NCBI RefSeq assembly: GCF_000968535.2 | Contig: NC_016112.1 | Location: 1,798,001 to 1,862,000 of the forward strand | Reading direction: 5' to 3' | Length of the DNA: 64,000 nt | DNA from: Methylotuvimicrobium alcaliphilum 20Z | Lineage (GTDB): Bacteria; Pseudomonadota; Gammaproteobacteria; Methylococcales; Methylomonadaceae | Shown: piece after piece, positions 25,179-42,310 of the stretch | Layout: each line of letters opens with the position of its first letter | How positions within the stretch are numbered: position 1 is the stretch's first letter | Made by a program: the position numbers and the translations under genes | The notes under the pieces: model-generated | The model's input: the letters and a program-made list of their open reading frames with translations, nothing else | What the model was told of the DNA's origin: nothing | The model's database searches: none

Positions 25179-25657
25179 CAGGGCGCCTCTCTATCCATCA
25201 AGGCCGAAATTCCATGCAACACAAAGCGCAGACTCATGATGCCGAAGCCGAATGGGATAATGAGTTGGCAAATCCACACAGGAACCGAGGCGAATGCCGT
25301 AGTCGCATCTTGATAGTCCATCAACGTCAATCGCGCGCCTTGCCAAGCCAGTAGTGCGCAAATGATAGCGGTAAACCAGTGGCTGATGAGTTGAGCGGGT
25401 ATTTTCAGAAATGGGGGCAGGTACTTGCTAAGGACATCGATGCTGATATGGTTATTATCGCGGGTTGCGGCCATCGCCCCGAGCAGCGCGATCCATAGCA
25501 CTAGGATACGCAGCAGCGGGTCGGCCCAGTCCAAGCCGGCGCCCCAAACGTTTCGCAGCACGACCTGGCCGATGGCCAGCAAAATCATCGCGGCGAGTAC
25601 TAACGCCAAAATACCGTCTTCTAGCCGCCTTAAACCGTTGGTGAGACGCCGACACAT
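25178..25657 (-). CDS. dctQ: TRAP transporter small permease (DctQ)
   Basis: Small membrane subunit of the TRAP transporter, 159 residues with four predicted helices. The family motif is seen in QVVLRNVWGAGLDWADPLLRI followed by LVLWIALLGAMAATRDNNHI. It is positioned between the binding protein gene (4-base gap) and dctM (1-base overlap), the standard arrangement. Confidence 0.92.
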   Translation of the reverse strand: MCRRLTNGLRRLEDGILALVLAAMILLAIGQVVLRNVWGAGLDWADPLLRILVLWIALLGAMAATRDNNHISIDVLSKYLPPFLKIPAQLISHWFTAIICALLAWQGARLTLMDYQDATTAFASVPVWICQLIIPFGFGIMSLRFVLHGISALMDREAP

Positions 25658-25661
25658 GGAG

Positions 25662-26666
25662 CTAGTGGACTGAGCCTTGGCGAAAGTCGTTTAAATGCCG
25701 TCTTAGGGTCTCGATAATCGATTGGCTGAGAATGCCTTCCCGTTCCATTTTCGATTTAGTGTCTTCGAGCATCGCCTGCCAGTTTTTTCGATCGTTTTCA
25801 TCGGTTGCGACGAATTGAATGCCTTGGTTGCGTAAAACCCTGAGCGCTTCGGCATTATCGCGGCGATTGATACTGTTGAATTCCTTATAAACCGCGCCGA
25901 TTACATCGCGAACGATTCGTTGATCGTCCGGCCTTAATCGCGAGAAGGCCCGTGCTTGAACGATCATCGTGCCGTACAAATAAGCCAACGGTTCATCGGT
26001 AACAAATTTGACGCGGGCGTGCCATTGCAGCGCAATCGCGCCCATCGGCGAGCTGGCGACCGTATTGATCAGGCCGGTTTGCAGTGCGGTCATTACGTCG
26101 GTTAACGGCAGCGATATCGGGGATACGCCGATGGTTTGAAAAGCGCTTCGGCTGATGTAATCGCCTTCGGGAATCCATATCTTTTGGCCTTTCAGGTCTT
26201 CGACCCGCGACACCGGTTTGTCCGACATCAAATAGGCAAAACCGCCTTCGCTCAGACCGAAGCTGATAAAACCGTTTTGCTCGAGTCCCTTGACGATCAA
26301 ATCGTCCATGCGCGAGCGCACATAATCGACTTCGTCGAAAGAGCGAAAAATCAACGGCAAGCTATACACCTGCGAATCCGGGTAAATGTCCTTCAAACCG
26401 CCGCCGGGAATAATGCCGCCTTGTAATTGATTGACATTGATTTTACGCATCACGCTGGCGTCGTTGCCCATGATACCGCCCGGGTAAAACCGAAAGGTAA
26501 CGCGACCGTTCGTGCGCCGTTTAATCTCGTCGGCAGCTTCGCGCATTTTTTCCATCCAGACCGTACCGTCCGGCGAAGCTGTTGCGATTTTGAGCATTTG
26601 CGATAGGGCCGGCGGCGAAAAAACCGTCAGGCACATTAAAAACAGAGTCGCGATTAAATGATGCAT
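25662..26666 (-). CDS. dctP: TRAP transporter substrate-binding protein (DctP)
   Basis: Periplasmic solute receptor of 334 residues with a signal peptide (cleavage near ALSQ). The DctP fold is recognised from IATASPDGTVWMEKMREAAD, TFRFYPGGIMGNDASVMRKI, and EVDYVRSRMDDLIVKGLEQN. The usual organic-acid-binding Arg lies in the segment around PEGDYISRSAFQTIGVSPI or nearby, but the substrate cannot be read from the sequence. It follows the TatT gene by 3 bases, an arrangement seen in TatT-type (TRAP-associated TPR) systems, where the TPR partner is proposed to hand the ligand to DctP. Confidence 0.93.
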   Translation of the reverse strand: MHHLIATLFLMCLTVFSPPALSQMLKIATASPDGTVWMEKMREAADEIKRRTNGRVTFRFYPGGIMGNDASVMRKINVNQLQGGIIPGGGLKDIYPDSQVYSLPLIFRSFDEVDYVRSRMDDLIVKGLEQNGFISFGLSEGGFAYLMSDKPVSRVEDLKGQKIWIPEGDYISRSAFQTIGVSPISLPLTDVMTALQTGLINTVASSPMGAIALQWHARVKFVTDEPLAYLYGTMIVQARAFSRLRPDDQRIVRDVIGAVYKEFNSINRRDNAEALRVLRNQGIQFVATDENDRKNWQAMLEDTKSKMEREGILSQSIIETLRRHLNDFRQGSVH

Positions 26667-26669
26667 AAG

Positions 26670-27530
26670 TCACTCTTGGAAGTAGCTGTCGGATTCGGCC
26701 AGTAATTGTTGGGCTTCTTGTTGCGCCATGGTATTGGAAAGGGACAGGCCCGGCACATTCGGGTCAGCCTGCAGTACTTCGCGCAGCAAACGGTCGTGGA
26801 GATCACGATCATACAGCATCCGAGCATAATTGCGTGCCAAGGCGACCTTGACGGCCAGATCGTTACCGCGCGACAGTTCTATCGCGCGCTCGAAATGGCT
26901 TTTAGCGGTTTCCGGATCGCCGCCCAAAGCCGGCGATAATTGCGAGCGGAGCAGTCCCAGATAGAAATGCGCCCGTCCGGAATCGAAGGACTCGTCCAAT
27001 TCGAGTATTCTTTCGAATAACGATTCGATTTTCGGTCGGTCGGCAATCGCATCCCAATCGCGGCTGTGAGCTTGCAGCCACGAAGCCCAAGTCAGTCCGT
27101 AGGTGTACAGAACATTCAAGGATGCACGATCGGCATTTTGCAAAGCCGGTGCGAAAGCGTCATGAGGCAATCGGTCGATCCGACATAGGGAGGGCCGTTC
27201 CAAACACAGAGCCCGTTCGGCGTAAGCGCGCGCTTTATTGCTGAGGTTACGGGCACGGGACGTCTCCCTCACCAATTCCGATGCATACAATGCATAGAGC
27301 TTAGCGCCGGAAACCAGCAGGTCCGTATTTTCCGGTTGTTGCTCGATCAATCCGTCGGTCATCAATAGATAAGCCGGCAAGCCTTCGCGCACGATCTCGA
27401 TGTCGTTCTGATCGAGAATTGCCGAGGACAGAGAGTCGGAAAGGTTTTGAAGGGAAGCGCTCACGCAGCCCATCAAAAACGCCGATAAAACCGGCAATAA
27501 AATAAATCGGGTTATTTTCGCTATGGGCAT
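26670..27530 (-). CDS. tatT: TRAP transporter TatT component (TPR lipoprotein)
   Basis: Periplasmic helical protein of the TatT (TP0956-like) family, which pairs with DctP-type receptors and may bind a hydrophobic ligand. It has 286 residues, a lipoprotein signal with lipobox LMGC (Cys at about 22), then TPR-like helices; the family blocks EIVREGLPAYLLMTDGLIEQ, YGLTWASWLQAHS and HFYLGLLRSQLSPALGGDPE are visible. First gene of the TRAP block, 155 bases downstream of the enediyne thioesterase on the same strand. TatT systems have been suggested to move amphipathic molecules, which makes its place next to a polyketide cassette interesting. Confidence 0.9.
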   Translation of the reverse strand: MPIAKITRFILLPVLSAFLMGCVSASLQNLSDSLSSAILDQNDIEIVREGLPAYLLMTDGLIEQQPENTDLLVSGAKLYALYASELVRETSRARNLSNKARAYAERALCLERPSLCRIDRLPHDAFAPALQNADRASLNVLYTYGLTWASWLQAHSRDWDAIADRPKIESLFERILELDESFDSGRAHFYLGLLRSQLSPALGGDPETAKSHFERAIELSRGNDLAVKVALARNYARMLYDRDLHDRLLREVLQADPNVPGLSLSNTMAQQEAQQLLAESDSYFQE

Positions 27531-27685: not shown

Positions 27686-28111
27686 TCAGATTTCAAATTC
27701 GTATAACGCCAAGCGTAGCGATTGAGGAAGTGGCGTAGGGCGCATTGTCGTTCCCTCTTTCATCATAGAGGCGATTTGTTGTTCGCCGCTGGCGATCAAT
27801 TCTTCAGTGTTTTCTTGACGGACTCTTAGATAATCAAATTTCATCGTAACGCGATTTTGTGTGATCTGAGTTGCAAACATTTTTATGAGCACTTCGTCCA
27901 ATGCGAACAACTCCTGAAAATATTCGCACGATACCCGCGTCGTTACTAGGCTTAACCCTTGCCCAAGCGCATCGATCACGTCGGGTGCATAATCGCGTAG
28001 AAATATTTCACGTACTCGGCCTTGCCAACGTATATGGTTGGCGAAATAGACATTGCCGACCAAGTTGGTTTCTTCAAAACTAACGATGTGCCGATATTCG
28101 TAGGCTTTCAT
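27686..28111 (-). CDS. enediyne-type hotdog thioesterase
   Basis: Acyl-ACP thioesterase of 141 residues that releases the polyene from the iterative enediyne synthase (the E10/CalE7/DynE7 family). The N-terminus YEYRHIVSFEETNLVGNVYF is the characteristic signature, followed by NHIRWQGRVREIFLRDYAP, with the Asn and Arg used in place of a catalytic acid in this family. ATG at 28111 is one base after the synthase stop, with GGAAG just upstream, so the two genes are coupled. This gene next to the synthase is one of the strongest markers of an enediyne cassette. Confidence 0.92.
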   Translation of the reverse strand: MKAYEYRHIVSFEETNLVGNVYFANHIRWQGRVREIFLRDYAPDVIDALGQGLSLVTTRVSCEYFQELFALDEVLIKMFATQITQNRVTMKFDYLRVRQENTEELIASGEQQIASMMKEGTTMRPTPLPQSLRLALYEFEI

Positions 28112-28112
28112 A

Positions 28113-31100
28113 TTACTTCCCGAATGCTGCCGGCGATTTTGATTGGCGATTTTGTTCGATCAATACCGAAAACATCAATGGCGAAGAAGTGCCTTTGAGC
28201 TTTGCGATGTAGGTGGCAATGACGAAAGGGCCGGCTGTAAAAGTGACCCATCCGTCTTTTTCAGCCGATTGTAAGGTCAACGGGTGATTGGCGCTTGCGC
28301 CTGCTTTTTTCAAGCATTCGATGGCACCCCAAACGCGGGTCGCCGTTCGATCCAGGTTTTCTCCGAATTGTTCGACGGTCAACCGCGCCAATGCAAAGCG
28401 TTCTTTGCCGAGTAAGTCTTCCCACGCGGTAATCGGCCGATCGGTAACGGTTTCTAAATCGCAAGCGACTTGTGATTCGCTTGTAACCGCGAAAACCCAA
28501 CCCTCAGCATGTGCTACGGAAATCGTTCGGCCATCGACGGATTCGGGTTTGCCGTCGCTACGGCGCAAAATAGTGTTTTTATTGCCCAAGGCCAATTGGA
28601 TTGCAGTCTTGGTCGGTTCTTCGGCAGCATGGCTGTCTTTGCGTAACAAGACGAAGTTCAAATCGTGTGGTTTAACGATTGCATAAATCTTGCGCTGCAG
28701 ATAAGGCGCAATTAAACCAACAGGCCAAGTTTCCCAATCGATGTTCGTAATCTCGCGCAAATGTAGGCCTTGCCAAATTTCTTTCAAAAAGCCCGCATGG
28801 CTTCGAATTTCGAGGTCGTAGCAAAATTCATCGTGTCGTTGCCACCGTTCTCGGGCTAAGACATATATCGGGCCGTCGATATTCAAGTCTTTCGGTATCC
28901 AGCGTTCTAAGGCGGTGGGTAACACGATTGCATGCGGAATGCAGGCTTGAATCGCGTGGAGGGCTGCATCTCGAGTACCGGGATCGCCTATCAGTAAGGT
29001 TTGCGGCAAAAAGCGGGCAAACCAAGTTTCTTTCGAAAGGTCTGTGCCGATATCGGCAGTACATTGAAATGCGGAAAGCTGCCGATAGGCTTTTACTTGT
29101 CGAAAGCGGCCATCTTGAAAAAATAAAGGGCCGTAAAGTTCGGCGTCCGGGTCGATGGCTATTTTATGTGGATTAGTTGAATTCTCCTGAGCTGCTTCGT
29201 CGCGATAATTATTCGGACAGGCATCGAATCTTAATATCGCATGGAAGTGATCGATTTGGAATGCGGTCTGGCTGAAACGTAGAGCGACCTCGATGCTCTG
29301 GTCCTCTTTAACTAAAGCAACGGTGCGCAACGTAACGATCTCGTTGGGAGGCACTACGATCGGGTGGGCAAAACGCAAGTCCTGGAAGGAAGGAGTTTCA
29401 GTCCGGCCAGTGACCGACCGGGCTGCTTGCACCATAGCTTCCATTCCGATGACAGCCGGAAAAATATGTTCGCCTTGGTAAACATGATCGTTCAAATAAG
29501 GATCGTTGTTTAATGAAATTTCAGAATCGGTCACTAATTCGATTCCCGGATAAAATAGCCCGGGCTTTTCTATAAATCGAAGAAAAGGTAATTCGTTGGT
29601 CGGCAGAACCGGCAAAGGCGGAGTAATGCCTAAACGGCCGCTTATTACCACGTTTGAACTCGGCAATTCCAAATCCAGCAACCGGTTCAACCATTCGATG
29701 CCTTGTTCCGGCGATATCGGGCTAATCCCTTCACGTAATAAAGTGTCGATACGGCCTAAGCGCTCACCCATGCCGACGCCCGACCATATAGACCATTCGA
29801 GAGAAAGGCAACGACAAGCGGGGTTACGCTCTTTGAACGAATCGGTTTCATGGCTCAGCCAAGCATTCGCCAATGCATAATCTGCTTCGCCACGCATTCC
29901 AACGCGGCCAATAATCGAGCTGAAGTTAATTAATAGCTTGAGTTTGCCGGAGTCGACCGATGCCAGTAGATGCTTAAGGCCGGATATTTTGGGAGACAAT
30001 GTGCGCTTTAGAATCTCAATATCCAAGTCGTGGATCAATCTGGGCTCATTGACGCCTGCGCCATGTAAAATAGCGGTAATCGCGCCGAATTCGGATTCCG
30101 CTTGCTTTACGGCGTTGTGAATACTATCCGCATCGCCGACATCGGCGGCATAATAGCGGAATGCTATGTCGGCCTCACTGAAACGCATCAGGTTTTCATC
30201 TAACACGGTATCGTTTTCCGGTAATGCGCGTCCCAAGAGTATCAAGCGTAGACCATGCACGCGCGCCAGCGAAAAGGCGCATTCGGCGGCGATGCCTTTA
30301 CCGCCGCCACTGACTAACAGCACATCGCCCGATGTTAATAACGAATTTCCGCTATCGTCGGCAAGAGTGGCAATTAAACGCAAAACCCGTTCCGATCGTT
30401 GTCCTGAACTATCGTAAATCGCTTCACAAAAACCGTCGGCAGCAAGCGTTTCGGCAACAATCCAAGATAACGCTTCTTGGCGATAGGGCGTATCGATAAC
30501 GCTAACGGATAATCCATCGGCTTCTTCAAACAAGGTTCTTGCAAATGCCGAGGCAAAACCGTTGTGCTGAACCAGAATGAAAGACCTTGGCGTTCCGTCT
30601 TGTTCCAACGCGACTTGTGCCGCATCCAACAGTAATCGGTCGTATCCGGAGTCTGGGGTGGGAGGGAGACAGAGCAAAACGCCCGTGCCGCCGATCGACT
30701 CAAGCCGCTTTAATAAAGGGGCGGCCAGTATATGATCTTCAGGGGCAAATACACGCCAAGACGAAGGCTGTTGTCTTTGACGGTCATTAGAAGAGGGCTT
30801 GGCTGGCTTTAATTCGCAGGGGCGCTGTTCGATAGTGAAGGCTCTTACCCAATTTTCTAGTCCTTGAGGCGCTGTATGTCGTTCGATATCGGCGTCATTA
30901 TTAACGGTGCGCATCGATTCCAGAAATCGGGCTGCTTGGCCAACGGTGGCGTGTGCGTATTCCGTCGGCGCCAACGAAACCGGCAGATTCAGTTTCCGTG
31001 CGGCGTCGGCCATAATTTGTCCGATGCTGATCGAGTTAAGATGCAAATCCCGTAATAAATGATGTTGGTCTTGAATTTCCGAAGCGGGCAGTTCAACTTT

Positions 31101-33941
31101 TTGAGCCAGCATTTGACGAAGTAACTGTAAAGCGTCGAGGCGTTCGGAGGTTTTCGGTAAAGCCTCATTCCGCGGATCACGGATAAGGGCTTCGGTGTTC
31201 GTTTTCGGCGCCGAGTCGTTTAAACGGTTTTCGATAGTATCTGTTGGTGCTGCCTCGCAAGGGTTGGATAAAAACGACAAGGGTCGTAACGGGTCGAAAT
31301 ACCGTGTAAATCGATCCGCGAACAAGCCTCGGGTTTTGATTGGCTGCCCAAGTGCGTAAGCCGCGCCGATTGCCATGAGCAGCCCTTGTAAAGACGGCCC
31401 CGAGGAATCGAGCGCCACGACAGGCGTGGTGTGGTCGGTTTTAAGTAAGCCGCTGAGTATGCGTCCAGGGCCGACTTCCAGACAAAGATCGCAATGCGGT
31501 AGCAGTTTGGTGAGCGCTTCGGTGAAACGAACCGGAGAAGTTAATTGTTCCCCAAGATGTTTTGGAAAATGAATGTCCGACAAAAAACCGCCAGTTACGG
31601 TCGATACGACGGGCCGGATAATTGAATGAAAATTCTCGGATTCCAGAGACCGGGTCAATTGCTCGGCGGCAAGCGCCATCGAAGGCGAATGAAAGGCATG
31701 TGTAATCGGTAACAGGGTAAATGCAATATCTTGCGCTTGAGCGAGAGTCATCACACGGCGAATGGCATCGGTATCGCCGGCTATCACGCATTGGTTACTG
31801 CTGTTCAAACCGGCAACGACGACGCCGGATTCTTGGCCGATTAGCGCTTGCGTGTTGGCTTCATTGGCTCCTATAACCGCCATTGCACCTTCAGACCGTT
31901 TATCGGCAGACATGATCGCGCCACGCCGGCGAACGATGCGCATCAAAGCCTGTTCGTCTAAAGCGCCGGCCCAATGCAGGGCAGTTAATTCGCCCAAGCT
32001 GTGACCAGCTGCTATTTGCGCTTCGATACCGACGGCGTCAAGTAAGCGCAAGCCTGCGATTTCAGCGAGGGCGATCGCCGGTTGAGCATGACCGGTATCT
32101 TCAGGATCGCCTGGTAGCGGCGGTTGTTGGTCATAATATAAGCTGTCGATTTCGCTAAAGCGTTTGCCCATCGCGCCGCCTGTGAACCGTACAGGCGAAG
32201 CTTGGCCGGGAAATAAAAAGGCGATGCGCGGAGCCGTTTCGCCACAGCCTAAAAACACGCCTGCTTCGGTATCGAATCCGGAGCTTTTTTCTTCGTCAAG
32301 CCAACCGTGCAAAATGCCGAGGTTTTCTTCCAGTTGTTTCGGAGTTGCAGCGACGACAGCAGCGCGGACGCTGCAGGGCTTGATCGCGTTTGTCAGCGCG
32401 GCGGCCAAATCGGTCAATTCGGCATAAGAAAGAGAAGGTGCTAATTGCCGCAAGTGTTCGGTCGATTCGATTAGAGCGACCGGGGTTTCGGCGCAGAAAA
32501 TAAACAACTCGCAATCTTGTCGGCTGCGTATTAGTGCGGTTTCGCGTGACGTTAAGCTTTTTCGGCGAGCCGTCGATGCGCCTTCCAAGGTGACATGTAC
32601 ATTAATACCGCCGAAACCGAAAGAACTGACACCGGCTCTTAACGGCTGTTCTTCTGGCCAGCTAACGCCTGTTTCCAGAAGGCGTAGATTTCCTTGCTCG
32701 AATACCCGATGAGGACTGTCGATGGCGGTGGCGGGTGGTAAAATTTGGCTATGCAAAGCCATGAGTGCTTTTGTGAGTCCGGCCATGCCCGCCGCGGCCT
32801 TGGTATGGCCGATATTGGCTTTTATCGAACCGATCGTTGCGGGTGTTCGGTTGTCCGCCAGTAATTCGGACAAAGCATTCAGTTCGACTTCATCGCCGAC
32901 CGCCGTGCCGGTGCCGTGACCTTCAAACAAAGGCACGGTGCCGATTCCATAGCCGGCTCGCCGGTAAGCGCGTTGCATGGCGAGTTGTTGTCCCGATAGT
33001 TCAGGGCGGGTCATGCCTCCGCTGCCGTCGGATGAAATTCCCCAGCCGCGAATAAAGCCATAACAACGAAGCCCCCTGCCTAAGGCTTCGTCATGTCGCA
33101 TTAATAAAGCGAAGCCGCAGCCTTCGCCGGGTAAAAATCCGCTTGGATTTCTATCGTAAACCCGCATGCTGCCGCGGGAAAGAGCGCCGACGCGAGAAAA
33201 ACCGATCAGTTCGAAAGGATCGAGGCTCAAATCGACACCGCCGACCAATGCGGCATCCAAATCGCCCGATTGCAAAGCGGTGCAGGCTTGTGCAACGGCA
33301 AGCAACGACGAACTGCAAGCACCGTCAACGGTAAATCCGCCGCCCTGGAAATTGAAAAAGTTGCAGATTCGTCCCGCTATCGTGTTGGCGAGACCGCCTG
33401 CCAAGGTTTCCTCGCCGACCGGCTCGAAAGGGGCTTTATAATGTTGTTCCATGAGCCGCAAGAAATCGCGGCGTTTGTCGTTGTCCCAACCTTCGGCGGT
33501 CAAGCGTTCGTTTAGCACTCTTTGAACATAGGGCCAGCGCAAACGCATCAAAGCTGCTCGAGAGAACTCTCCGGTCAGCGTATTACCGACAATGACGCCG
33601 GTGCTTTCTTTCGGTAAGCCGATACCGTTCGGCAGACCGGCGTCCTCGAGTGCGCGAGCGGCAATATCGAGCGCCAGCCAATGTGTCGTATCGGTGCTAC
33701 GAAAAGTCGAACCGGCAATGCGGAACTTTTGCCGGTCGAATGAATAACCCTCGAGCACGGCCGCCTCTTTGACGTATATCGAGTCGGAATGCTCGGTCCG
33801 GTTCTCTAAATAGTCCTGCAGGTTGAGCCGTTCGGACGGCAAACGCCTAAACGCGCGGCGTTGGGCTAATACGTTTTCCCACAGCGCTTGCGGCGAGTCG
33901 GCATCGGGGTAACGGCATGCAATTCCGACAATCGCGATCAT
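28113..33941 (-). CDS. pksE: iterative type I enediyne polyketide synthase (KS-AT-ACP-KR-DH-PPTase)
   Basis: Builds a linear polyene precursor by iterative condensation of malonyl units. ATG at 33941 overlaps the unbU stop as ATGA and gives 1942 residues, close to SgcE and CalE8; an upstream in-frame start would add 29 residues inside unbU. Domains in order: KS (about 1-450; Cys209 in DGACSSS, His342 in EGHGTGT, His379 in NIGHTK); AT (about 570-870; Ser648 in GHSLGE, His751); ACP (about 930-1010; Ser970 in RDLHLNSI, the enediyne-type sequence); KR (about 1200-1410; nucleotide motif GGGKGIAA, Tyr1355); DH (about 1475-1690; His1486 in NDHVYQGEHIFP); C-terminal phosphopantetheinyl transferase (about 1780-1940; VACDLE with Asp1828, WGAIECLKKAG with Glu1875). 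All key residues are present, so the enzyme looks active and able to modify its own ACP. Confidence 0.95.
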   Translation of the reverse strand: MIAIVGIACRYPDADSPQALWENVLAQRRAFRRLPSERLNLQDYLENRTEHSDSIYVKEAAVLEGYSFDRQKFRIAGSTFRSTDTTHWLALDIAARALEDAGLPNGIGLPKESTGVIVGNTLTGEFSRAALMRLRWPYVQRVLNERLTAEGWDNDKRRDFLRLMEQHYKAPFEPVGEETLAGGLANTIAGRICNFFNFQGGGFTVDGACSSSLLAVAQACTALQSGDLDAALVGGVDLSLDPFELIGFSRVGALSRGSMRVYDRNPSGFLPGEGCGFALLMRHDEALGRGLRCYGFIRGWGISSDGSGGMTRPELSGQQLAMQRAYRRAGYGIGTVPLFEGHGTGTAVGDEVELNALSELLADNRTPATIGSIKANIGHTKAAAGMAGLTKALMALHSQILPPATAIDSPHRVFEQGNLRLLETGVSWPEEQPLRAGVSSFGFGGINVHVTLEGASTARRKSLTSRETALIRSRQDCELFIFCAETPVALIESTEHLRQLAPSLSYAELTDLAAALTNAIKPCSVRAAVVAATPKQLEENLGILHGWLDEEKSSGFDTEAGVFLGCGETAPRIAFLFPGQASPVRFTGGAMGKRFSEIDSLYYDQQPPLPGDPEDTGHAQPAIALAEIAGLRLLDAVGIEAQIAAGHSLGELTALHWAGALDEQALMRIVRRRGAIMSADKRSEGAMAVIGANEANTQALIGQESGVVVAGLNSSNQCVIAGDTDAIRRVMTLAQAQDIAFTLLPITHAFHSPSMALAAEQLTRSLESENFHSIIRPVVSTVTGGFLSDIHFPKHLGEQLTSPVRFTEALTKLLPHCDLCLEVGPGRILSGLLKTDHTTPVVALDSSGPSLQGLLMAIGAAYALGQPIKTRGLFADRFTRYFDPLRPLSFLSNPCEAAPTDTIENRLNDSAPKTNTEALIRDPRNEALPKTSERLDALQLLRQMLAQKVELPASEIQDQHHLLRDLHLNSISIGQIMADAARKLNLPVSLAPTEYAHATVGQAARFLESMRTVNNDADIERHTAPQGLENWVRAFTIEQRPCELKPAKPSSNDRQRQQPSSWRVFAPEDHILAAPLLKRLESIGGTGVLLCLPPTPDSGYDRLLLDAAQVALEQDGTPRSFILVQHNGFASAFARTLFEEADGLSVSVIDTPYRQEALSWIVAETLAADGFCEAIYDSSGQRSERVLRLIATLADDSGNSLLTSGDVLLVSGGGKGIAAECAFSLARVHGLRLILLGRALPENDTVLDENLMRFSEADIAFRYYAADVGDADSIHNAVKQAESEFGAITAILHGAGVNEPRLIHDLDIEILKRTLSPKISGLKHLLASVDSGKLKLLINFSSIIGRVGMRGEADYALANAWLSHETDSFKERNPACRCLSLEWSIWSGVGMGERLGRIDTLLREGISPISPEQGIEWLNRLLDLELPSSNVVISGRLGITPPLPVLPTNELPFLRFIEKPGLFYPGIELVTDSEISLNNDPYLNDHVYQGEHIFPAVIGMEAMVQAARSVTGRTETPSFQDLRFAHPIVVPPNEIVTLRTVALVKEDQSIEVALRFSQTAFQIDHFHAILRFDACPNNYRDEAAQENSTNPHKIAIDPDAELYGPLFFQDGRFRQVKAYRQLSAFQCTADIGTDLSKETWFARFLPQTLLIGDPGTRDAALHAIQACIPHAIVLPTALERWIPKDLNIDGPIYVLARERWQRHDEFCYDLEIRSHAGFLKEIWQGLHLREITNIDWETWPVGLIAPYLQRKIYAIVKPHDLNFVLLRKDSHAAEEPTKTAIQLALGNKNTILRRSDGKPESVDGRTISVAHAEGWVFAVTSESQVACDLETVTDRPITAWEDLLGKERFALARLTVEQFGENLDRTATRVWGAIECLKKAGASANHPLTLQSAEKDGWVTFTAGPFVIATYIAKLKGTSSPLMFSVLIEQNRQSKSPAAFGK

Positions 33942-34879
33942 TTTCCGGCACTCTCGGCAAGTTGCGCATTCTGGAACAGTCGTTGGCGGTGTGCGATCAG
34001 ATACAGCCCGGCTCCCCGGCAAGCGCAAACGGCAAATAATGCGATAAACAATCCGAACACGATATTTTCAATCAGCAACAGTGCATAAACGGCGGCAACG
34101 GCCAGGCCGAACAGGATTTGGCGGAATGGATTTAAAGGCGTCGTGGCCGGATCCGGAATCATATAAAGCGTAAACAGGATAAAAGCGGCGCTGGTCATGG
34201 GAATCAGAGGTACGATCCAAGGAATATCGAAATACCAACTGCGTAGAAAGGCTTGCAGCAAAAAACCGCCGATCCAGGCGATGCATAACGGTAGACGACC
34301 GGTAAAATAAGCATGAACAATAATACCGCTGATTAAAATGAACCCCGGAATAATCCAATGCCAAAGGCCGGTGACGTTTTCGGTGAATTGATAGGGCGGA
34401 GCGAGGCCGATCCATGGAAATAGCAGCAAGGTTACCGTAATACCGAAATTCGATGGATTGAAAATATGCTGCGAACCTTGACCGACAGGCGCCCTAAAAA
34501 CGATTTTGGACGCGATCGATAACGCGGAAGCGAAAATCATCGGCCAAAGCAGTTCGTTCGGATAAATCAGCATACCGACAGCAAGCCCCGGTATTAGGGC
34601 CGGCAGCAAAAAGATAAATCGGTCCGATAGGCTGTTTCCGTATCGCGGCGCGCGTCGGGTCGAACGGCTATCCACCCACTCCAAGAGCCAATGCGTGAAA
34701 CACGCGCTTGCCACGGCGACGATCGGTTGCAGACCGGATTGCTCGAATCCGAGCACGGTATGTCCAAGAATCGTCCAAAGCGTAATGAGAGCGGCAAAAT
34801 AGCCTAATGCGAACAGGCGTAACTTAGGGCTGCCTTTCGGATAAAAAAAACGGGTCGTGATCGTTTCGTTAATATTCAT
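33938..34879 (-). CDS. unbU: enediyne cassette membrane protein UnbU (E5)
   Basis: One of three conserved but biochemically unassigned proteins that always accompany enediyne synthases. It has 313 residues and about 8-10 membrane helices. HIFNPSNFGITVTLLLFP and MIPDPATTPLNPFRQILFG recall the membrane subunits of Na+-NQR and Rnf complexes (NqrB/RnfD), though the flavin attachment residue is not certain. Both ends overlap the neighbours by four bases (ATGA), tying it to unbV and pksE in one coupled unit. A role in electron transfer or export is inference. Confidence 0.9.
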   Translation of the reverse strand: MNINETITTRFFYPKGSPKLRLFALGYFAALITLWTILGHTVLGFEQSGLQPIVAVASACFTHWLLEWVDSRSTRRAPRYGNSLSDRFIFLLPALIPGLAVGMLIYPNELLWPMIFASALSIASKIVFRAPVGQGSQHIFNPSNFGITVTLLLFPWIGLAPPYQFTENVTGLWHWIIPGFILISGIIVHAYFTGRLPLCIAWIGGFLLQAFLRSWYFDIPWIVPLIPMTSAAFILFTLYMIPDPATTPLNPFRQILFGLAVAAVYALLLIENIVFGLFIALFAVCACRGAGLYLIAHRQRLFQNAQLAESAGK

Positions 34880-36831
34880 AAATTTTCCGCCTCTGCTTCG
34901 CCGAGTATTACAGTGTGCCAGCCCTGTTCGAGGTTGAGCGTCTTACGGTGCATGCTGCCGGCTTGTCCGCGCCAACGCAGTTCAATCTCCAAAGGAGCAT
35001 TACCGGACAGTTTTCCAAGTCCGAAATGGAGATCGGGGCTACGTTGACCGGAATGACCGTTTCCACCGTCGACTTGAGCGACTATTTTTTTTCCATTCGG
35101 TAAATAAACGGTTGCTTGGGCTCCGATTGCCGGATAAGCGGAAATGTCATGATCCGGATGTCCCTCGATAATTCGAGTATGCGCCGAATCGCCGGCGATT
35201 CGAAGGTGTAGACCGATAAAATCGCCGCAGTCAGGGCATTCGTTCCGAAAGAAATACGATCTTTCCCATTGATTGGCTACGACAAAATCCAAGTCGCCGT
35301 CTCCGTCGACATCGGCCACGGCAATGCCGCGACTGACCATCGGATCGTCCAGTTGAAGTTCCGATGCTAAATTGTAGAAACGACCGTCCTCGGCGCGCAC
35401 AAAAAAACCGTTGGCTTCATGGCCACTTAAATCGTCGCCGAGTTTGAAAGAGGGCCAATGCCGAGGATTACTCATCATGCGGTCGTTTCCGGTGCCTAAC
35501 GCTTGCAATTTTGCCCAACGAGGCGTTTCGCCCTTGACGAAACCGGTCGCGACCAGTGCTTCCGGATAACCGCTGTTATCGAAGTCGGCTAGACGCGTGT
35601 CCCAACCCCAACCGGCTCTGGAAAGGCCGAGCTTTTCACTGGCTTGAACATAGGGGGCAACGCCGTCGCGCATGCGTTCCGGCTCGCCGGTGCTCAACCA
35701 TAATAAATTGCTCTCTTGCAAAGCCCATTCGCTGGTGATATTGCTGACGAATAAATCCAATAGGCCATCGCCGTTGAGATCGCCGAAATCGACGCCCATG
35801 CCTTTAAAGGAATCCTGACCCAGCACGAACGATTTCGGCGTGGCGAGGCCCGCTTTACCGCGCAATTCGACCCAATTTAAGCGCCCCGGGGTCGAACGGT
35901 TGTGCAGTAAGCGGTCCGGGCCGAAGTCATGCCCTAAATAAAGTTCCGGCAACAAGTCGCCATCCAAGTCGGCCGCGCCGACCGCCAAGGCCCAGCCGTG
36001 CTCGGTCGCCGGGTCGAGCACGCCGGTTACGGCTCGATAACGAACATTGGGTTGTTCACCGCTTTCGGCACCGTCCCAAAGCAATAAATGCGTTTTGCCG
36101 CCGCTGAACGAACGGGACTTGGTGTCGTGCATCCGCTCGATGCCTGTGCCGCTTGCATCGAGAATTTGCGCGCCGTCCGAAAAATAGTTGCCGATAACCA
36201 AGTCGATATGGCCGTCGCCATCTAAGTCGGCTAGCGTTGCGGCATTGGTAAACCAACGCTCGTTGCCGGGAAAGATATCCACCGGTTTAAAGCTTTCCGC
36301 GGTGAGACCGGTGCTATCGCCACGCTGTAAAAAGGCGACCGGAGTGCGCCCCCAGTAATAAATGATAGCATCGAGTAAGCCATCCTCGTTGAGATCGCCG
36401 AATAGGCAGCCCATCGGCGCCATCGTCGCGGCATCGAATGCCACGGGCGCCGGATGCAATTCGAATGGCGTATAGCGTTCGCCGGTTTCCGGAACGGGCG
36501 CGATGATAACCGAATCGAAGCGCGGATCGACATGGCAGAGATCGTTCGGCAGGCCGTCGCCGTCAAGGTCGCCGAGCGCAACGCTCGCACCGACCGATGA
36601 GATCCACGCGGAAATATGTTCCAAGCTTGGATGAACGTTTCTTACCGAACGCGGGTTTTTTCCGGACGGCTCCGGTAACGCCAAGCGGGTAAAGTCGAAG
36701 CGTCCGGCGATGGCTTTTCGTTCCGAAGGGCTCAAGCTCGGCGGTTGCATAAAGCCGTAAAGAAGGCCGATCCAAACCAGGGCGGCCAACAGCGTCGCGC
36801 GGCGGCGTAGAAGTGGATAAATGCTATTCAT
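34876..36831 (-). CDS. unbV: enediyne cassette FG-GAP/ASPIC-UnbV protein (E4)
   Basis: Secreted or membrane-anchored beta-propeller protein that accompanies enediyne synthases. Starting from ATG at 36831 it has 651 residues: a hydrophobic N-terminal helix (TLLAALVWIGLLYGF), then at least six FG-GAP-type calcium-binding repeats (ALGDLDGDGLPND, FGDLNEDGLLDA, ADLDGDGHIDLVIGN, DFGDLNGDGLLDLFVSN, ADVDGDGDLDFVVAN) and a C-terminal ASPIC/UnbV domain (about 545-650, IGAQATVYLPNGKKIVAQVD). An in-frame start 72 bases upstream would overlap unbL; the chosen one places a signal anchor at the N-terminus. Its biochemical role is unknown. Confidence 0.9.
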   Translation of the reverse strand: MNSIYPLLRRRATLLAALVWIGLLYGFMQPPSLSPSERKAIAGRFDFTRLALPEPSGKNPRSVRNVHPSLEHISAWISSVGASVALGDLDGDGLPNDLCHVDPRFDSVIIAPVPETGERYTPFELHPAPVAFDAATMAPMGCLFGDLNEDGLLDAIIYYWGRTPVAFLQRGDSTGLTAESFKPVDIFPGNERWFTNAATLADLDGDGHIDLVIGNYFSDGAQILDASGTGIERMHDTKSRSFSGGKTHLLLWDGAESGEQPNVRYRAVTGVLDPATEHGWALAVGAADLDGDLLPELYLGHDFGPDRLLHNRSTPGRLNWVELRGKAGLATPKSFVLGQDSFKGMGVDFGDLNGDGLLDLFVSNITSEWALQESNLLWLSTGEPERMRDGVAPYVQASEKLGLSRAGWGWDTRLADFDNSGYPEALVATGFVKGETPRWAKLQALGTGNDRMMSNPRHWPSFKLGDDLSGHEANGFFVRAEDGRFYNLASELQLDDPMVSRGIAVADVDGDGDLDFVVANQWERSYFFRNECPDCGDFIGLHLRIAGDSAHTRIIEGHPDHDISAYPAIGAQATVYLPNGKKIVAQVDGGNGHSGQRSPDLHFGLGKLSGNAPLEIELRWRGQAGSMHRKTLNLEQGWHTVILGEAEAENL

Positions 36832-36869
36832 ATTGCTGGTATCCTCTAAGGTGAGGCTGCGATACAGGC

Positions 36870-37811
36870 TTAAATAAAGTGTCGCCGTATCCGTTGCCGC
36901 CAATGTTCGTAAGCCGGCAGCGCGTTATCGGCAGGCACTTTCCGCAAGGCATCGTCCGTTAATTGCGCGGCATGTTCGGCGCTTAAATTGCAAAAGATGC
37001 GGCAGGCCAGCTTGGTATGATCGGCCGGATTGCCGGCCCGTTGCCGGGCTTTGGCTGCAAATGCAGCGCCTTGAGCGAGATGCGCAAGAAAGTCGCCGGC
37101 CAAAACTTTCAGACGCTCTAAAACGTCCGGTTCGACACCGCCGGCATAAGCGCCGGCCAAGCCGACGCCGCTCCACAAGTCGCCCTGCCTATCCGTCGGA
37201 AAGTCTTGCAGCGCCGATACGATACGCTCGGGATCGGCTCCCATGACGAACCACAGACTGCGTCCTAAACCTTGGTCGAAAGCCCTCTTTTCATAGCCTT
37301 GTAGGCATGAAGGACGCTGTTGACGGCCGATACTGTCCGGCCAATGAAAATAGCCTTCGTGGAAGCCGTAACCGTCAAGGACCAGCCAACGGAGTAGGCA
37401 GTCCATGCGCGAGGTCAGGCTTGCCGGCGACACCGGCAAGCGGGCCAAAGCCCAACCGGCGCCGACATGCAACATATAGGCGTGATGCTGCGCCGGGCCT
37501 GTCAAAAATGCTTGAAAACGGCTCGGTCGCCACGGGCAAAGGAAATCCGATATCACCAAGCCCATCGCGGCACCTTCGAAGAGGAAACCGCGCAATTCGT
37601 TGTCGTCGATTGAGTTCAAATGCTCGGTAAGGCGCAACGGATCGTTATCGAGCAAGGCGGCATGATAACCTTCGACAAAACTCTTGCCGATGCGCTCGAT
37701 TCGCGCCTTGACCCGGTCGTCGCCGACCTTGAAGCCGCGCAGTTCGATTCGGGTTTCGGCATCCGAAATGCCGAATAAAGCGTGTCGGCAGCGTCCGAAA
37801 AATGCAACCAT
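36870..37811 (-). CDS. unbL: enediyne cassette protein UnbL (E3, DUF1702 family)
   Basis: First gene of the cassette, 313 residues, belonging to the DUF1702 family found with enediyne synthases. Family blocks are FLFEGAAMGLVISDFLCPW, HVGAGWALARLPVSP, LLRWLVLDGYGFHEGYFHWP and LGRSLWFVMGADPERI. No membrane helix is evident and no catalytic motif is recognised. The order unbL-unbV-unbU-pksE-thioesterase is that of the classical cassette. The 73-base gap to the PEP-CTERM gene upstream may hold the operon promoter, or the cassette could be read through from further up. Confidence 0.9.
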   Translation of the reverse strand: MVAFFGRCRHALFGISDAETRIELRGFKVGDDRVKARIERIGKSFVEGYHAALLDNDPLRLTEHLNSIDDNELRGFLFEGAAMGLVISDFLCPWRPSRFQAFLTGPAQHHAYMLHVGAGWALARLPVSPASLTSRMDCLLRWLVLDGYGFHEGYFHWPDSIGRQQRPSCLQGYEKRAFDQGLGRSLWFVMGADPERIVSALQDFPTDRQGDLWSGVGLAGAYAGGVEPDVLERLKVLAGDFLAHLAQGAAFAAKARQRAGNPADHTKLACRIFCNLSAEHAAQLTDDALRKVPADNALPAYEHWRQRIRRHFI

Positions 37812-37884
37812 AGAAAATTTTTATCGTTATTAAAGCCAAAAGCTTAGCAAAAAGCGCCGAAGGACTCGGCGCATAGTCTTACGC

Positions 37885-38856
37885 TTAAGCGAGGGGTTTG
37901 CGGCGATGTTGCCAGCCGAACAATGCTAGTCCTGCGGACAGTAGCATGAATGTGGTGGGTTCAGGGACAATGTGTTTGGCGTCAATTGCAAATACGGAGG
38001 GAAGATCAAGATCAGCAGATGTTATTTCAGTTCTGTCAGGGTTAATGAAAAATAGATCCAGTGGTGGAGGACATGCTTCCTCGACGACTGCATCAAAAGT
38101 TCCGATCGATGGATCCAATGCACTTACTTTTCCTGAGCAAATATATTGAGTCCACTTCGGTGGCGGAACATCTTCTATTTCAGCAAACATTCTCAGAGCA
38201 TAGCTATCTAGTATGCTATCGCCGGATAAATCACGAACATCGTTACTCACTACCTCCCCTACATCAACAATGCCATCGTTATTGAAATCGATCCAAACGT
38301 CAAAGAAGATATCGAAAATGCTATTTGCTGGAAAGTCGATATTGCCATCTGGAAGACCGGCCAAATCTTGGATTTGCCCGCGAGAATGATCGAGACCGAT
38401 AAGGTCTGTGAATATCAAATCATCAAAGAAAGACCAGCCTTCCCCAACCCGAATTTCAGTATGAAACCCCATTGTTTTACCGACAAGATGAAGACTTACC
38501 ATCTCAGTCATGATGGTATCAAGCCCATTTTGTTCGAACGGTGTTTGGTAGCAATCTGATTTTTCGCCAAGATAAACACAATCGCGGATCACCTGCGTTG
38601 GGCCCGTGCCCTCAAAAATTACTCGTTGACCACCGATATCAAGCTCTTTGATACCTATAGAATTAAAGCTATCTTTAATATCGAATGGTTGCTGCCAAAT
38701 AGCTGCGGCATTGGAATCAGTTGATAACAACGTGGCAACCAATGCAAATGGTAGAGCGAAATATTTTAAGTCGCGAAATACTTGAGTACTTGATAGATAA
38801 GAGTGATAAAAAGACCGCCTTGTTTTATAGGACGAAAGATTAAAGAGTAAGAACAT
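37885..38856 (-). CDS. PEP-CTERM sorting-signal protein, unknown function
   Basis: A 323-residue secreted protein with an N-terminal hydrophobic signal (FALPFALVATLLS, cut near SNAA) and a C-terminal PEP-CTERM tripartite signal: VPEP, a hydrophobic helix (TTFMLLSAGLALFGW) and the basic tail QHRRKPLA. Such proteins are processed by exosortase and are common in exopolysaccharide-producing bacteria, including methanotrophs. The middle contains acidic DFNNDGIVDVGE, a dockerin- or EF-like calcium loop. ATG at 38856 follows a GGGGGAG stretch very closely; an in-frame start 111 bases upstream would precede the signal by many residues. Function unknown. Confidence 0.85.
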   Translation of the reverse strand: MFLLFNLSSYKTRRSFYHSYLSSTQVFRDLKYFALPFALVATLLSTDSNAAAIWQQPFDIKDSFNSIGIKELDIGGQRVIFEGTGPTQVIRDCVYLGEKSDCYQTPFEQNGLDTIMTEMVSLHLVGKTMGFHTEIRVGEGWSFFDDLIFTDLIGLDHSRGQIQDLAGLPDGNIDFPANSIFDIFFDVWIDFNNDGIVDVGEVVSNDVRDLSGDSILDSYALRMFAEIEDVPPPKWTQYICSGKVSALDPSIGTFDAVVEEACPPPLDLFFINPDRTEITSADLDLPSVFAIDAKHIVPEPTTFMLLSAGLALFGWQHRRKPLA

Positions 38857-39074
38857 AACTCCCCCAAATTTTTTAAAATTGAAGTCAAGTTTCAACGAAA
38901 ATCGATATAAGTTGCTTTTTCGCCATGTGTTAGCATGAGTGTCTATTCGCCAACAAATTAAGAACACACAATATTGATACCAAAAGGCCTAGGTCATACG
39001 GTGCGTCATTGTGCTTGTCGCACGATTCAGGCGGAACGTAGCGTTAACGACCGTTATTCAACAGTAGCAAAACG

Positions 39075-39533
39075 ATGAAACGACAAGATCTAAGCCATAA
39101 TCGTCTGGTGCTTATCGAGACGTTAAATAAATATTTAAATAAATCGCGATCCGCGCGTTTTCAATATCGATTACAGATCTTGATTTTAGCGACGGCGGGA
39201 CTGAGTTACGAACGGATTGCCCAATGTTTCGACATCAGTATTCGAAGCGTTCAACGCTGGGTGCGTTTTTACCGAATATTCGGACTGGAAGGCCTTAAGG
39301 ATGACAAGAAGACCGGTCGGCTTACCGTTTTGAAACAAGACGAGAAGCTCAAGGTGAAGCTCGATTTGTCCCATTCGCCGATCGAGTTAGGCTATCGGGA
39401 TCAAAACTGGAGCGGCGGTTTATTGAAATCGCATTTACACGAAAACTATGGCGTTAATCTCAGTCTTAGGCAATGTCAGCGCATATTGAAGGATTATCGA
39501 GACGATTTAAACAGTAAGGAGCCTGCGCCATAG
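39075..39533 (+). pseudogene. truncated IS630-type transposase, HTH half only
   Basis: 152 residues with the N-terminal helix-turn-helix pair of IS630/Tc1-type transposases (LSYERIAQCFDISIRSVQRW) and the winged-helix linker (WSGGLLKSHLHENYGVNLSL, RQCQRIL). The catalytic DDE half is missing: the frame ends at 39533 and the family-1 element starts two bases later. Either the element's insertion cut the gene, or this is a stand-alone HTH protein, since the end after RDDLNSKEPAP is clean and some genomes carry such short proteins. No terminal repeats of an IS were seen. Confidence 0.65.
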
Positions 39534-39964: not shown

Positions 39965-42310
39965 TCATTTGCGATTATTCGCATCGCCGTCCCACAGCAT
40001 CAATAAAGGCGGCAGCAGTAATAAATCCAAGAACAAGGCGATGGTTAGCGTTATCGCGGTCATTAACCCCATTTCCGAATTTATCGTAAAAGGCGAAAAA
40101 CTCAAGACGATAAATCCGCAGATCAAAACCGCTGACGTGATCCAGATCGCTTCGCCGACGGTCGAAAAGGCGTGTCGTATTGCCTCCCTGCAGCCATAGT
40201 TTTTTTCCAGTCGTGCATGCCGGTATTTGCTGATGAAATGAATCGTATCGTCGACTACGATGCCAAGCGTGATGCTTGCCACCACGGATAGGCTCAAACC
40301 CACGCGCCCGTCGATGAGCGCCCAAATACCGAAAGCGGCAATAGAAGGCGTTAAATTCGGAATAATGCTGATAAGTCCTAAACTTAGCGAACGAAATGCA
40401 CCGATTAGAATAAACGAAATAAAGACGAGTACGAGCAAGGTTCCTGTAATCATGCTGCGGATATTGCGTTGCCCGACATGGGCGAACATCAATGCCGTGC
40501 TGCCGGTTTCAATGCTCGTTTCCGGCATGTCGGTTTTTAACCATGCTTTCGAGCGCGATTCGAATGCCAGCATTTGTTTAGAGCTCAAATTCTTCAAGGT
40601 GACGATGACCCGCGTACCTGATTTATCGGCGTTGATTTGATCGTTTAAGTCCAAGCCGTATGGCAACGACAATTCGTACATTAAAAGGTATTGAGAGGCG
40701 AGTTCGCGCCGGTCGGGTAAAGCGTAATATTTCGGGTCGTCGTCATGCATGTTTTTATTGAGTCGTTTGAATATATCGGTCACGGTATTGACATGCACGG
40801 TTTCGGGTTGTTTTTTCAGCCAATCGTTAAATCGGTCGAGATTTCGCAAAAAAACGGGTTCTTGTACTCCGCCTTCCTGTTGAGTATCAAGCGAATATTC
40901 GATCGTGTATATGCCTCCGAGATGTTGGCTGAGAAAATCGGTGTCTTGCCTGAATTCGATCGATTTCCCGAAATAGTTGACGAATTCGTCGTTCAATTCG
41001 TTGTCGGGTGCATAGCCGATCAGAATCATGGCAAGCAGACCGTTGATCGGTAGCAATGCTTTACGATAACGGATCACGAATATGGCCAAATGATGCATGG
41101 GCCTTTCGGTACGTTGTTGTTTTAACCGGGGTCTTATTGGCAATAGCGTTATCAGCGAGGGTAACAACGTAAGTGTTAAGAATAGCGCAGCCGCAACGCC
41201 GGTTGCGACGATATTGCCGAAGTCCCTAAAAGGAGGCGCTTCGCTGAAGTTCATGCCGAGAAACCCGAGCATCGTACTAACGCTGGTGAGTAAAATCGGC
41301 TGAAAATTCGAGTGTAGGCTTTCTTGAATGGCTTGTTTTTTTTCTTGCCCCGCCTCCATATTTTGACGTATCGCAAGCAATACATGGAGGCAGTCGGCTA
41401 CCGCAACCGTCATGATGATGGTCGGCGCGACCGCCGAGGTAGGCGTTAAGTGGCCATGAAACCATCCGAATGTTCCTAACGCGGAAGCCATTGCCAACAT
41501 AATGAGCAAGACGACGGCGAATGTCGCCGATAGCGATCTCAAGCTTAGCCATAATACCCCAATGATAACGCTATACATCAGCGGCAATAATTTCAGATTA
41601 TCGCTCATCGCCACCTCAACAAAGGCATTACTCATCATTGCTATGCCGCTGATTCGAATTTTAACGCCGGGATATTGACTCTCGATTTCGCCTGCGAGCT
41701 TTCGTGCTCGTTCGGCAAGACGAATCGATTCCATCGGGCTTTTTCCAGGCAAATGCACATTAACATTGACGCCTGCGACATGGCCGTTTACAGATACCAG
41801 TCTATTAACCAGCAGGGGCTCATTCAGTGCCGTTTTCTTTATGGATAGAATTTCGGTTTCGGTCAAAGCCTTCGGGTCGGGAATCAAGTCGGCGATGATT
41901 ATGTTTTCGTTGTCCGAATAACTATGTTGAAAATTAACGATAGAATCGACTCTGCTCGAATAAGGAAGCTGCCAGGCGGCTTGAGTCAATTGCGCGATGG
42001 CCTGAAGGGAGGAAAGATTAAAAATGGAATCGTTCGGCGGTTGAATGACAAAAAATACGCTATCGGTTCTATTATAAACGGCCTCTAAGGCCTCAAAAGC
42101 AAGAAGCCGCGGATTTTCCTTGCTGAAATAGACCCGTGAATCGCTATTGAACCCAAGATTCATCGCGCCGGACGATAATGCAACAACGACCGAAAAGACA
42201 AGCAAAAGAACGCGCCAAGGATAATACGTTACCCAGTGTGACAATCTATGACTGACGCTTTTCCAAGGCATATAAATGATTTGTTGTTTGAGGTTGGCGA
42301 GATTGTGCAT
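39965..42310 (-). CDS. RND superfamily exporter (MMPL type)
   Basis: A 781-residue inner-membrane exporter of the RND superfamily, with twelve membrane helices in two repeats (about 35-50 and 245-400; about 415-430 and 610-770) separated by two large periplasmic loops. Each half has the usual sequence around helix 4, for example VAPTIIMTVAVADCLHVLLA and SVVASITLGIVVDDTIHFIS with the conserved acidic residues used for proton coupling. MMPL proteins export lipids or other hydrophobic molecules; no substrate can be read. No adaptor or outer-membrane partner is adjacent. ATG at 42310 is used; an internal ATG at 42271 is possible. Confidence 0.88.
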   Translation of the reverse strand: MHNLANLKQQIIYMPWKSVSHRLSHWVTYYPWRVLLLVFSVVVALSSGAMNLGFNSDSRVYFSKENPRLLAFEALEAVYNRTDSVFFVIQPPNDSIFNLSSLQAIAQLTQAAWQLPYSSRVDSIVNFQHSYSDNENIIIADLIPDPKALTETEILSIKKTALNEPLLVNRLVSVNGHVAGVNVNVHLPGKSPMESIRLAERARKLAGEIESQYPGVKIRISGIAMMSNAFVEVAMSDNLKLLPLMYSVIIGVLWLSLRSLSATFAVVLLIMLAMASALGTFGWFHGHLTPTSAVAPTIIMTVAVADCLHVLLAIRQNMEAGQEKKQAIQESLHSNFQPILLTSVSTMLGFLGMNFSEAPPFRDFGNIVATGVAAALFLTLTLLPSLITLLPIRPRLKQQRTERPMHHLAIFVIRYRKALLPINGLLAMILIGYAPDNELNDEFVNYFGKSIEFRQDTDFLSQHLGGIYTIEYSLDTQQEGGVQEPVFLRNLDRFNDWLKKQPETVHVNTVTDIFKRLNKNMHDDDPKYYALPDRRELASQYLLMYELSLPYGLDLNDQINADKSGTRVIVTLKNLSSKQMLAFESRSKAWLKTDMPETSIETGSTALMFAHVGQRNIRSMITGTLLVLVFISFILIGAFRSLSLGLISIIPNLTPSIAAFGIWALIDGRVGLSLSVVASITLGIVVDDTIHFISKYRHARLEKNYGCREAIRHAFSTVGEAIWITSAVLICGFIVLSFSPFTINSEMGLMTAITLTIALFLDLLLLPPLLMLWDGDANNRK

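Follow-up and report, generated by a model that had tools for sequence, protein, structure and literature searches.

Genes at the locus

The window, the whole 64,000-nucleotide (nt) stretch analysed here, comes from the 4.8-Mb genome of Methylotuvimicrobium alcaliphilum 20Z (G000; NC_016112.1, positions 1,798,001–1,862,000). Five contiguous genes, for UnbL, UnbV, UnbU, an iterative polyketide synthase and an E10 thioesterase, lie on its minus strand at 27686–37811, and these are all five gene types (E3/E4/E5/E/E10) of an enediyne polyketide synthase cassette (Table 1). Judged from their sequences, the five genes are a complete and intact enediyne-type core cassette. An earlier reading of the DNA letters alone (the sequence-only reading) had proposed both the order unbL–unbV–unbU–pksE–thioesterase on one strand and a complete enediyne-type core. 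Both proposals are borne out by Pfam, where the three Unb proteins match DUF1702, ASPIC/UnbV and NQR2_RnfD_RnfE, by the E10 match of the thioesterase, by matches of all five proteins to those of the C-1027 producer, and by the grouping of the synthase with enediyne synthases. What that reading had overlooked is the gene immediately upstream of unbL, which encodes a secreted PEP-CTERM protein and has counterparts flanking many such cassettes.

Table 1. Features in and around the cassette (window coordinates)
Feature	Position	Strand	Basis
E10-type hot-dog thioesterase, 141 amino acids (aa)	27686..28111	-	PF13279
Enediyne-type iterative polyketide synthase, KS-AT-ACP-KR-DH-PPTase, 1942 aa	28113..33941	-	Pfam, active sites, trees, DynE8 AT match, 45% SgcE
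UnbU / E4-type membrane protein, NQR2/RnfD-like, 313 aa	33938..34879	-	PF03116, E = 3.1e-7
UnbV / E3-type protein, FG-GAP repeats and ASPIC/UnbV domain	34876..36903	-	PF13517, PF07593
UnbL / E5-type protein, DUF1702, 313 aa	36870..37811	-	PF08012, E = 1.9e-122
Terminator-like hairpin between PEP-CTERM gene and unbL	37854..37872	-	8 pairs, 6 G-C, then TTTTT; consensus match only
Secreted PEP-CTERM protein, positional counterpart of secreted proteins flanking other non-actinobacterial cassettes	37885..38967	-	PEP-CTERM tail; position directly upstream of unbL
MMPL/HAE3-type RND transporter; weakly linked, possibly an exporter	39965..42310	-	PF03176

The five proteins are 36–46% identical to proteins of the C-1027 (sgc) cluster: UnbL to both DUF1702 proteins encoded on the C-1027 plasmid (36% and 40%), UnbV to a CRTAC1 protein (46%), UnbU to an RnfD-like protein (44%) and the synthase to SgcE (45%), aligned over nearly its whole length. 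The UnbU residues HxFNPSN and DPxTTP are conserved in at least 95% of 34 aligned rows. The solved structures closest to the thioesterase are SgcE10 (3e-36), CalE7 (2.4e-35) and DynE7 (2.4e-34). The motifs pointed out by the sequence-only reading, RDLHLNSI in the acyl carrier protein (ACP) and EETNLVGNVYF in the thioesterase, are both present. On such evidence the cassette is no chance match, because the UnbL match to DUF1702 has E = 1.9e-122 and DUF1702 is found in just four of the 369 genomes drawn from across the class.

The joints between the genes are tight, though not all in the way that was first described. Four-nt overlaps are found at UnbV/UnbU and UnbU/synthase and a 1-nt gap separates synthase and thioesterase, as proposed, but the UnbL/UnbV joint lacks the ATGA overlap claimed for it. 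Coordinates and translations place the end of UnbL at 36870, and UnbV starts either at a TTG at 36903, overlapping UnbL, or, some 38 nt past the UnbL stop, at an ATG.

The synthase and its relatives

The open frame of the synthase runs from 28113 to 34028, and its 1942 residues are counted from the MIAIVG start at 33941. Pfam recognizes ketosynthase (KS), acyltransferase (AT), ACP, ketoreductase (KR) and dehydratase (DH) domains; the phosphopantetheinyl transferase (PPTase), which has no Pfam match, is placed by alignment. The seven active-site residues named in the sequence-only reading, Cys209, Ser648, Ser970, Tyr1355, His1486, Asp1828 and Glu1875 (numbered from MIAIVG), are all there. In an alignment of 49 synthases, which includes the window's own and the near-identical copy of a second genome of the genus (G004), every row (49/49) has the KS Cys, AT Ser, ACP Ser, KR Tyr and DH His, the PPTase Asp is found in 42 of 43 rows with a letter at that column and the PPTase Glu in 41 of 42. 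The window synthase has the KS-AT-ACP-KR-DH-PPTase architecture with intact active sites, and its AT region matches DynE8 (1.6e-58).

Two quick trees, with support from the Shimodaira–Hasegawa-like approximate likelihood ratio test (SH-aLRT) only and containing neither a named 10-membered synthase nor an aryl-polyene enzyme, place the window synthase in the enediyne clade. In the first, built on the KS-AT part, 52 enediyne-type rows lie on one side of a branch with support 100; the other side holds three PfaA proteins, five further type I synthases and six synthases linked to UnbL. For these deep joins the program warned of long branches. L135, which carried an outgroup label in this tree, is identical to an enediyne synthase (L043) and was omitted from the second tree, as were the other generic and UnbL-linked synthases and two divergent rows (L059, L090). 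With the three PfaA proteins as outgroup, the second tree again splits enediyne synthases from PfaA with support 100. SgcE of the C-1027 producer falls in a six-row actinobacterial clade (96), separate from the window synthase, whose own clade (nine rows, 96) comprises Methylococcales, further Proteobacteria and a single bin of the Fibrobacteres–Chlorobi–Bacteroidetes group. The grouping with polyunsaturated fatty acid (PUFA) enzymes, which the sequence-only reading had thought would speak against an enediyne-type core, is not seen.

Two side observations concern relatives of these proteins. One of the pair L028 and L030 is a bin named Rhizobium whose synthase is only about 0.07 changes per column from that of the other, the cyanobacterium Microseira wollei; a binning error or a recent transfer is possible. 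Some UnbL relatives in Streptomyces, Herpetosiphon and Ktedonobacteria (L081, L087, L088, L093, and also L075 and L086) adjoin a different type I synthase (27–32% to the query) outside the enediyne clade; neither UnbV nor UnbU has a match on the stretches compared. The first four have a common gene cluster, the single scanned member of which is FAD-oxidoreductase-like.

Distribution of the cassette

Enediyne-type cassettes in methanotrophs are no novelty: the portion of PMC8788690 consulted describes the same five gene types (an sgcE-type cassette) in Methyloprofundus sp. INp10 and also, with reference to Rudolf 2016, in two species of Methylotuvimicrobium. Enediyne KSs are likewise placed in several non-actinobacterial phyla, including Cyanobacteria, Proteobacteria and Chloroflexi, in the available part of PMC10308959. 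The two accounts differ from the present one in their treatment of the surroundings: the portion of PMC8788690 does not mention a flanking secreted gene (PEP-CTERM is mentioned there separately), and the text seen of PMC10308959 is based on KS phylogeny and does not mention neighbouring secreted genes.

The lineage to which the cassette belongs appears, from the genomes sampled, to be non-actinobacterial and patchily distributed. Four of 151 relatives in the own-group sample have a DUF1702 match: the window's own genome, G004, a third genome that also has the synthase (G087, which may be the Methyloprofundus one), and a weak match (G150) on an 8.3-kb contig with no cassette gene match. In the genus the cassette is found in two of the six genomes searched (G000 and G004) and not in G001 (79% complete), G002, G003 or G005. 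The cassette proteins of G004 are at least 99% identical to those of the window, and UnbL on a scaffold of M. buryatense 5G is 99% identical to the window's. A draw of 398 genomes from the phylum gave a single DUF1702 match, in the window's own genome. In a scan of named genomes, the best 80 of at least 492 confirmed UnbL relatives, a set biased toward relatives of the query, span many phyla. An empty-site comparison found no collinear flank in 400 kb of G002. Five contigs of Candidatus Parabeggiatoa (L017, L022, L026, L029 and L053, of which L022 and L053 are one genome) have UnbL with the other cassette genes unmatched on the stretches compared.

Comparison with the C-1027 cluster

Twenty-seven proteins (one of them cut) from a 45.8-kb stretch of plasmid SGLP1 of Streptomyces globisporus C-1027, which has 39 annotated features, were compared with the window; the stretch has no annotated apoprotein and need not span the whole C-1027 cluster. 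Six match the window: two DUF1702 proteins (both to the single UnbL), CRTAC1, the RnfD-like protein, SgcE and E10. The other 21, all from outside the cassette, have no match there (E ≤ 1e-6), in agreement with the sequence-only reading, which had seen no tailoring gene in the window. The E6 flavin reductase, cytochrome P450, GMC oxidase, DUF5987 and TIGR03084 proteins have no window match at the same threshold, the P450 being the only one of these searched for genome-wide. The accessory core genes of a 9-membered, C-1027-type cluster are thus not found near the cassette in the window. The two clusters also differ in that C-1027 has two DUF1702 genes and its E10 gene apart from the synthase gene. 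No Pfam match to a neocarzinostatin-family apoprotein was found among the ten neighbouring proteins, the part of the genome searched for it.

Across the 84 loci compared, with flanks of at most 10 kb and often less, so that the accessory-gene result covers the neighbourhood only, SgcE6, DUF5987 and TIGR03084 matches are confined to actinobacterial loci (four, two and one), and P450 and GMC matches to actinobacterial and three Chloroflexota loci. The absence of C-1027 accessory-gene matches around the present cassette seems, from these comparisons, to be a new observation. The only P450 match in the window's own genome lies about 0.98 Mb off and is fused to a ferredoxin; we take it to be CYP51-like.

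A recurrent secreted companion

When 951 open reading frames (ORFs) from the 84 loci and part of the window are clustered, the five cassette genes are followed in frequency by a secreted protein of some 270 aa, mostly PEP-CTERM-tailed, which occurs at 17 loci. Two clusters ranking just below it, with 14 and 11 loci, are in our reading shadow ORFs opposite UnbL and UnbV, and further clusters comprise MMPL-family (eight, including the window and G004) and AraC-family (eight) proteins. Pfam gives no match for the protein L007:9782-10618 or for either of two longer neighbours with similarity to the iterated profile, and among NCBIfam models only those for the tail reach their cut-off in the ten proteins examined. 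Four of the ten weakly match, over part of the body, the flocculation PEP-CTERM protein PepA (NF033554; 2.5e-5 to 0.0075), but at 16–24 bits against a cut-off of 80. A type A alignment (A5, types as defined below) found nothing in the PDB up to E = 10, and one type A protein gave no tblastn match to plasmids.

An iterated mixed profile, which gave no match to reversed sequences, finds members in 33 of the 84 loci (including G004) and in the window. In all 33 the nearest member lies 0–1.1 kb from a cassette gene, and in 28 it is on the same strand. Once signal peptides and tails are removed the members fall into two types, and the stricter counts are 21 of 84 loci for type A (at 1e-10), which recurs over several phyla, and six for type B. 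Type A is robust to leaving out one locus at a time, the omitted locus being found at ≤8e-23 in 19 of 19 tests. On sequence evidence, then, the secreted PEP-CTERM protein is a recurrent, not a universal, companion of the cassette; that many non-actinomycete cassettes are flanked by the gene for a secreted surface protein looks to be new.

A mixed profile (A2) matches three of the 151 relatives. These are precisely the synthase-bearing ones, and each has a single match, next to the synthase. A2 itself contains rows from two of these genomes, and two of them are closely related, which leaves two independent cases. A profile with no rows from Methylococcales or other gammaproteobacteria in the NCBI sense (A3, which contains three rows from two betaproteobacterial bins, in the same class in GTDB) matches three of the 369 class genomes, two with the cassette (G451, G004) and one without (G377), and misses two that bear DUF1702 (G000, G182). 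An A3-like profile of 28 rows, one of which (L041) comes from an unclassified proteobacterial bin, detects the neighbours of the cassettes in L013, L015, L038, L007, L019 and L016 (5e-30 to 8e-14). A secreted-protein match is found in 32 of 49 cassette genomes, and the best match of a genome is on its cassette locus in 22 of the 30 loci returned.

Some results weigh against the favoured reading of a secreted partner. No member is found at 36 of 62 synthase-bearing loci (some of them short), against 26 with one, and 17 of the 49 cassette genomes have no match. On the first tree, presence and absence of the secreted gene need at least ten changes over 46 rows (22 present, 24 absent), as scored by us from the loci only, with five rows unscored and L064 taken as present. 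Types A and B are weakly linked, with a score of 26.4 over a permuted-null maximum of 16.5 and, in another comparison, 0.1%. A single family for all the secreted proteins is weakened by this.

A rival account of the companion is that PEP-CTERM proteins are ordinary surface proteins that stand beside cassettes by chance in PEP-CTERM-rich genomes. PEP-CTERM-like tails are indeed frequent at these loci, where a rough pattern picks out 74 ORFs, and the window's member is divergent. However, the recurrence of type A in a quarter of the loci over several phyla, the restriction of the A2 matches to cassette-bearing relatives and the placement of most best matches on the cassette locus speak against chance proximity, and this explanation seems unlikely, although it keeps some weight.

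Among cassette-bearing bins, three (G911, G929 and G933; L124, L122 and L130) contain frames of about 2250–2580 aa with several matches to the secreted-family profile. The contig L118 (G932), of the Verrucomicrobiales bin behind L065, has exact 50-mers in common with the Cyanothece locus L052 (seven of 54 tested), and a mixed bin is possible.

The PEP-CTERM gene of the window

The kinship of the window's own secreted protein is less clear than its position. It is the only match in its genome to A2 (4e-9), a profile that holds the G004 orthologue, and profiles built without either protein find it at 0.0011 and 0.0033. A value of 1e-39, obtained with a profile that already included the protein, is left out of account. 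As a pair with the G004 orthologue it aligns with A3 by hhalign (88%, E = 2.8e-6, score 44.5), where 12 other PEP-CTERM proteins, each as a single sequence, reach at most 25.3. Against type B alone the pair gives 35.6–41.4% and scores of 32.4–33.8, with permuted nulls at or below 25.2. The genome has one exosortase match.

Other results count against membership of the companion families. The G004 orthologue is found at 4.7e-5 by the first of the two independent profiles and not at all by the second. The strict type A and type B profiles do not match the window protein at E < 1, and by this measure it is not of type A; hhalign against gammaproteobacterial type A rows gives 1.1% (E = 0.048), and against all of type A 3.0% with a score of 22.4 over permuted nulls of up to 21.1, which amounts to nothing. 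Its membership is weakened because the type-A-only tests fail and the G004 orthologue is missed. In addition, the hairpin of Table 1 separates the gene from unbL. The window gene may thus be described as a positional counterpart whose sequence kinship with the other secreted proteins is modest, mixed and partly contradicted.

A possible pathway and its alternatives

The reading we consider probable is that of an intact, patchily distributed, non-actinobacterial cassette of enediyne type, likely to give a polyene, polyyne or new enediyne-like product that is handled at the membrane and perhaps, outside the cytoplasm, by a secreted protein. By analogy with characterized relatives, the self-activating synthase would convert malonyl-CoA to an ACP-bound, conjugated polyene of C15 type, and the E10 thioesterase would release it; SgcE and SgcE10 together give a conjugated heptaene, according to the part of PMC8725005 available. 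UnbL and the FG-GAP/RnfD-like pair UnbV/UnbU may then act on the polyene, or move it, at the membrane. Membrane and periplasmic steps are suggested by the kinship of UnbU to NQR2/RnfD and by the FG-GAP repeats of UnbV. The PEP-CTERM protein encoded upstream of unbL could hold, carry or neutralize the product outside the cytoplasm. In the dynemicin cluster, the protein DynF has likewise been proposed to bind the polyene (same part of PMC8725005). A surface-sorted secreted partner would fit a product handled outside the cytoplasm, and it may serve as carrier, as sink or in self-protection, three roles that stand on an equal footing. DynF, to our knowledge, is not a surface-sorted protein.

A polyene, a polyyne or a new enediyne-like compound seems a more likely product than a classical 9-membered enediyne, which is unlikely because the C-1027 accessory genes are unmatched in the window. 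The cassette could nevertheless yield a true, DNA-damaging enediyne if tailoring genes at other places in the 4.8-Mb genome finish the molecule. In favour of this are the intact set of universal genes, their conserved active sites and the position of the synthase in the enediyne clade. Against it are the 21 unmatched C-1027 proteins and the nature of the genome's only P450, the one tailoring family searched for genome-wide: it is ferredoxin-fused and presumably CYP51-like. Completion elsewhere is therefore unlikely. A bolder form of the favoured reading makes the non-actinomycete cassette self-contained: the five core genes and a dedicated secreted PEP-CTERM protein would take the place of the tailoring genes of actinomycetes, and this protein, a Gram-negative counterpart of the actinomycete apoprotein, would bind the reactive polyyne or enediyne on the cell surface. 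This is doubtful.

The cassette might also be left over from a horizontal transfer and be silent or in decay. Its presence in just two of the six genus genomes searched, where one of those lacking it is incomplete, an IS630-related fragment nearby and a G+C content higher than that of the left flank would fit such a history, and transcription of the Methyloprofundus cassette is low to very low in the part of PMC8788690 consulted, which also weighs against an active pathway. All frames are intact, however, with every catalytic residue kept and near-identical proteins in G004, and decay is improbable. Finally, a PUFA-like or aryl-polyene synthase is very improbable, since the score of the synthase against the PfaA model, 444.6 bits, is far under the cut-off of 1010.1 and both trees, whose PUFA-type rows are three PfaA proteins and which contain no aryl-polyene enzyme, separate it from PfaA with full support.

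Methylotuvimicrobium strains can be grown, and in this genus the cassette stands without C-1027 accessory-gene matches around it, which makes the question of what the five universal enediyne genes produce on their own approachable experimentally. Should the conserved secreted partner bind the product, it would be a carrier or self-protection protein of a new kind and could serve as a marker in the search for similar pathways across many phyla.

Other neighbouring genes

The resistance–nodulation–division (RND) transporter of the MMPL family upstream of the PEP-CTERM gene was considered as a dedicated exporter. A relative (43% identical) adjoins the thioesterase gene in G087, and an MMPL match of some kind occurs in nine of the 84 loci. 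However, MMPL relatives are found in 59 of the 151 genomes, the closer ones lie away from cassettes, and the window's own genome has a 56% paralogue elsewhere; a dedicated role is accordingly downgraded. An MMPL-family transporter is also annotated beside the C-1027 genes (L183:44606-45766), and the part of it on the stretch compared is unmatched in the window.

Directly downstream of the thioesterase, at 23880–27530, are genes for a TAtT protein and a TRAP transporter (DctP, DctQ and DctM). They were rejected as parts of the cassette, since among the 84 loci only the near-identical relative G004 has them. Between the PEP-CTERM and MMPL genes, at 39075–39533, lies the IS630-related fragment, whose match to transposases scores 63 bits against a cut-off of 100.

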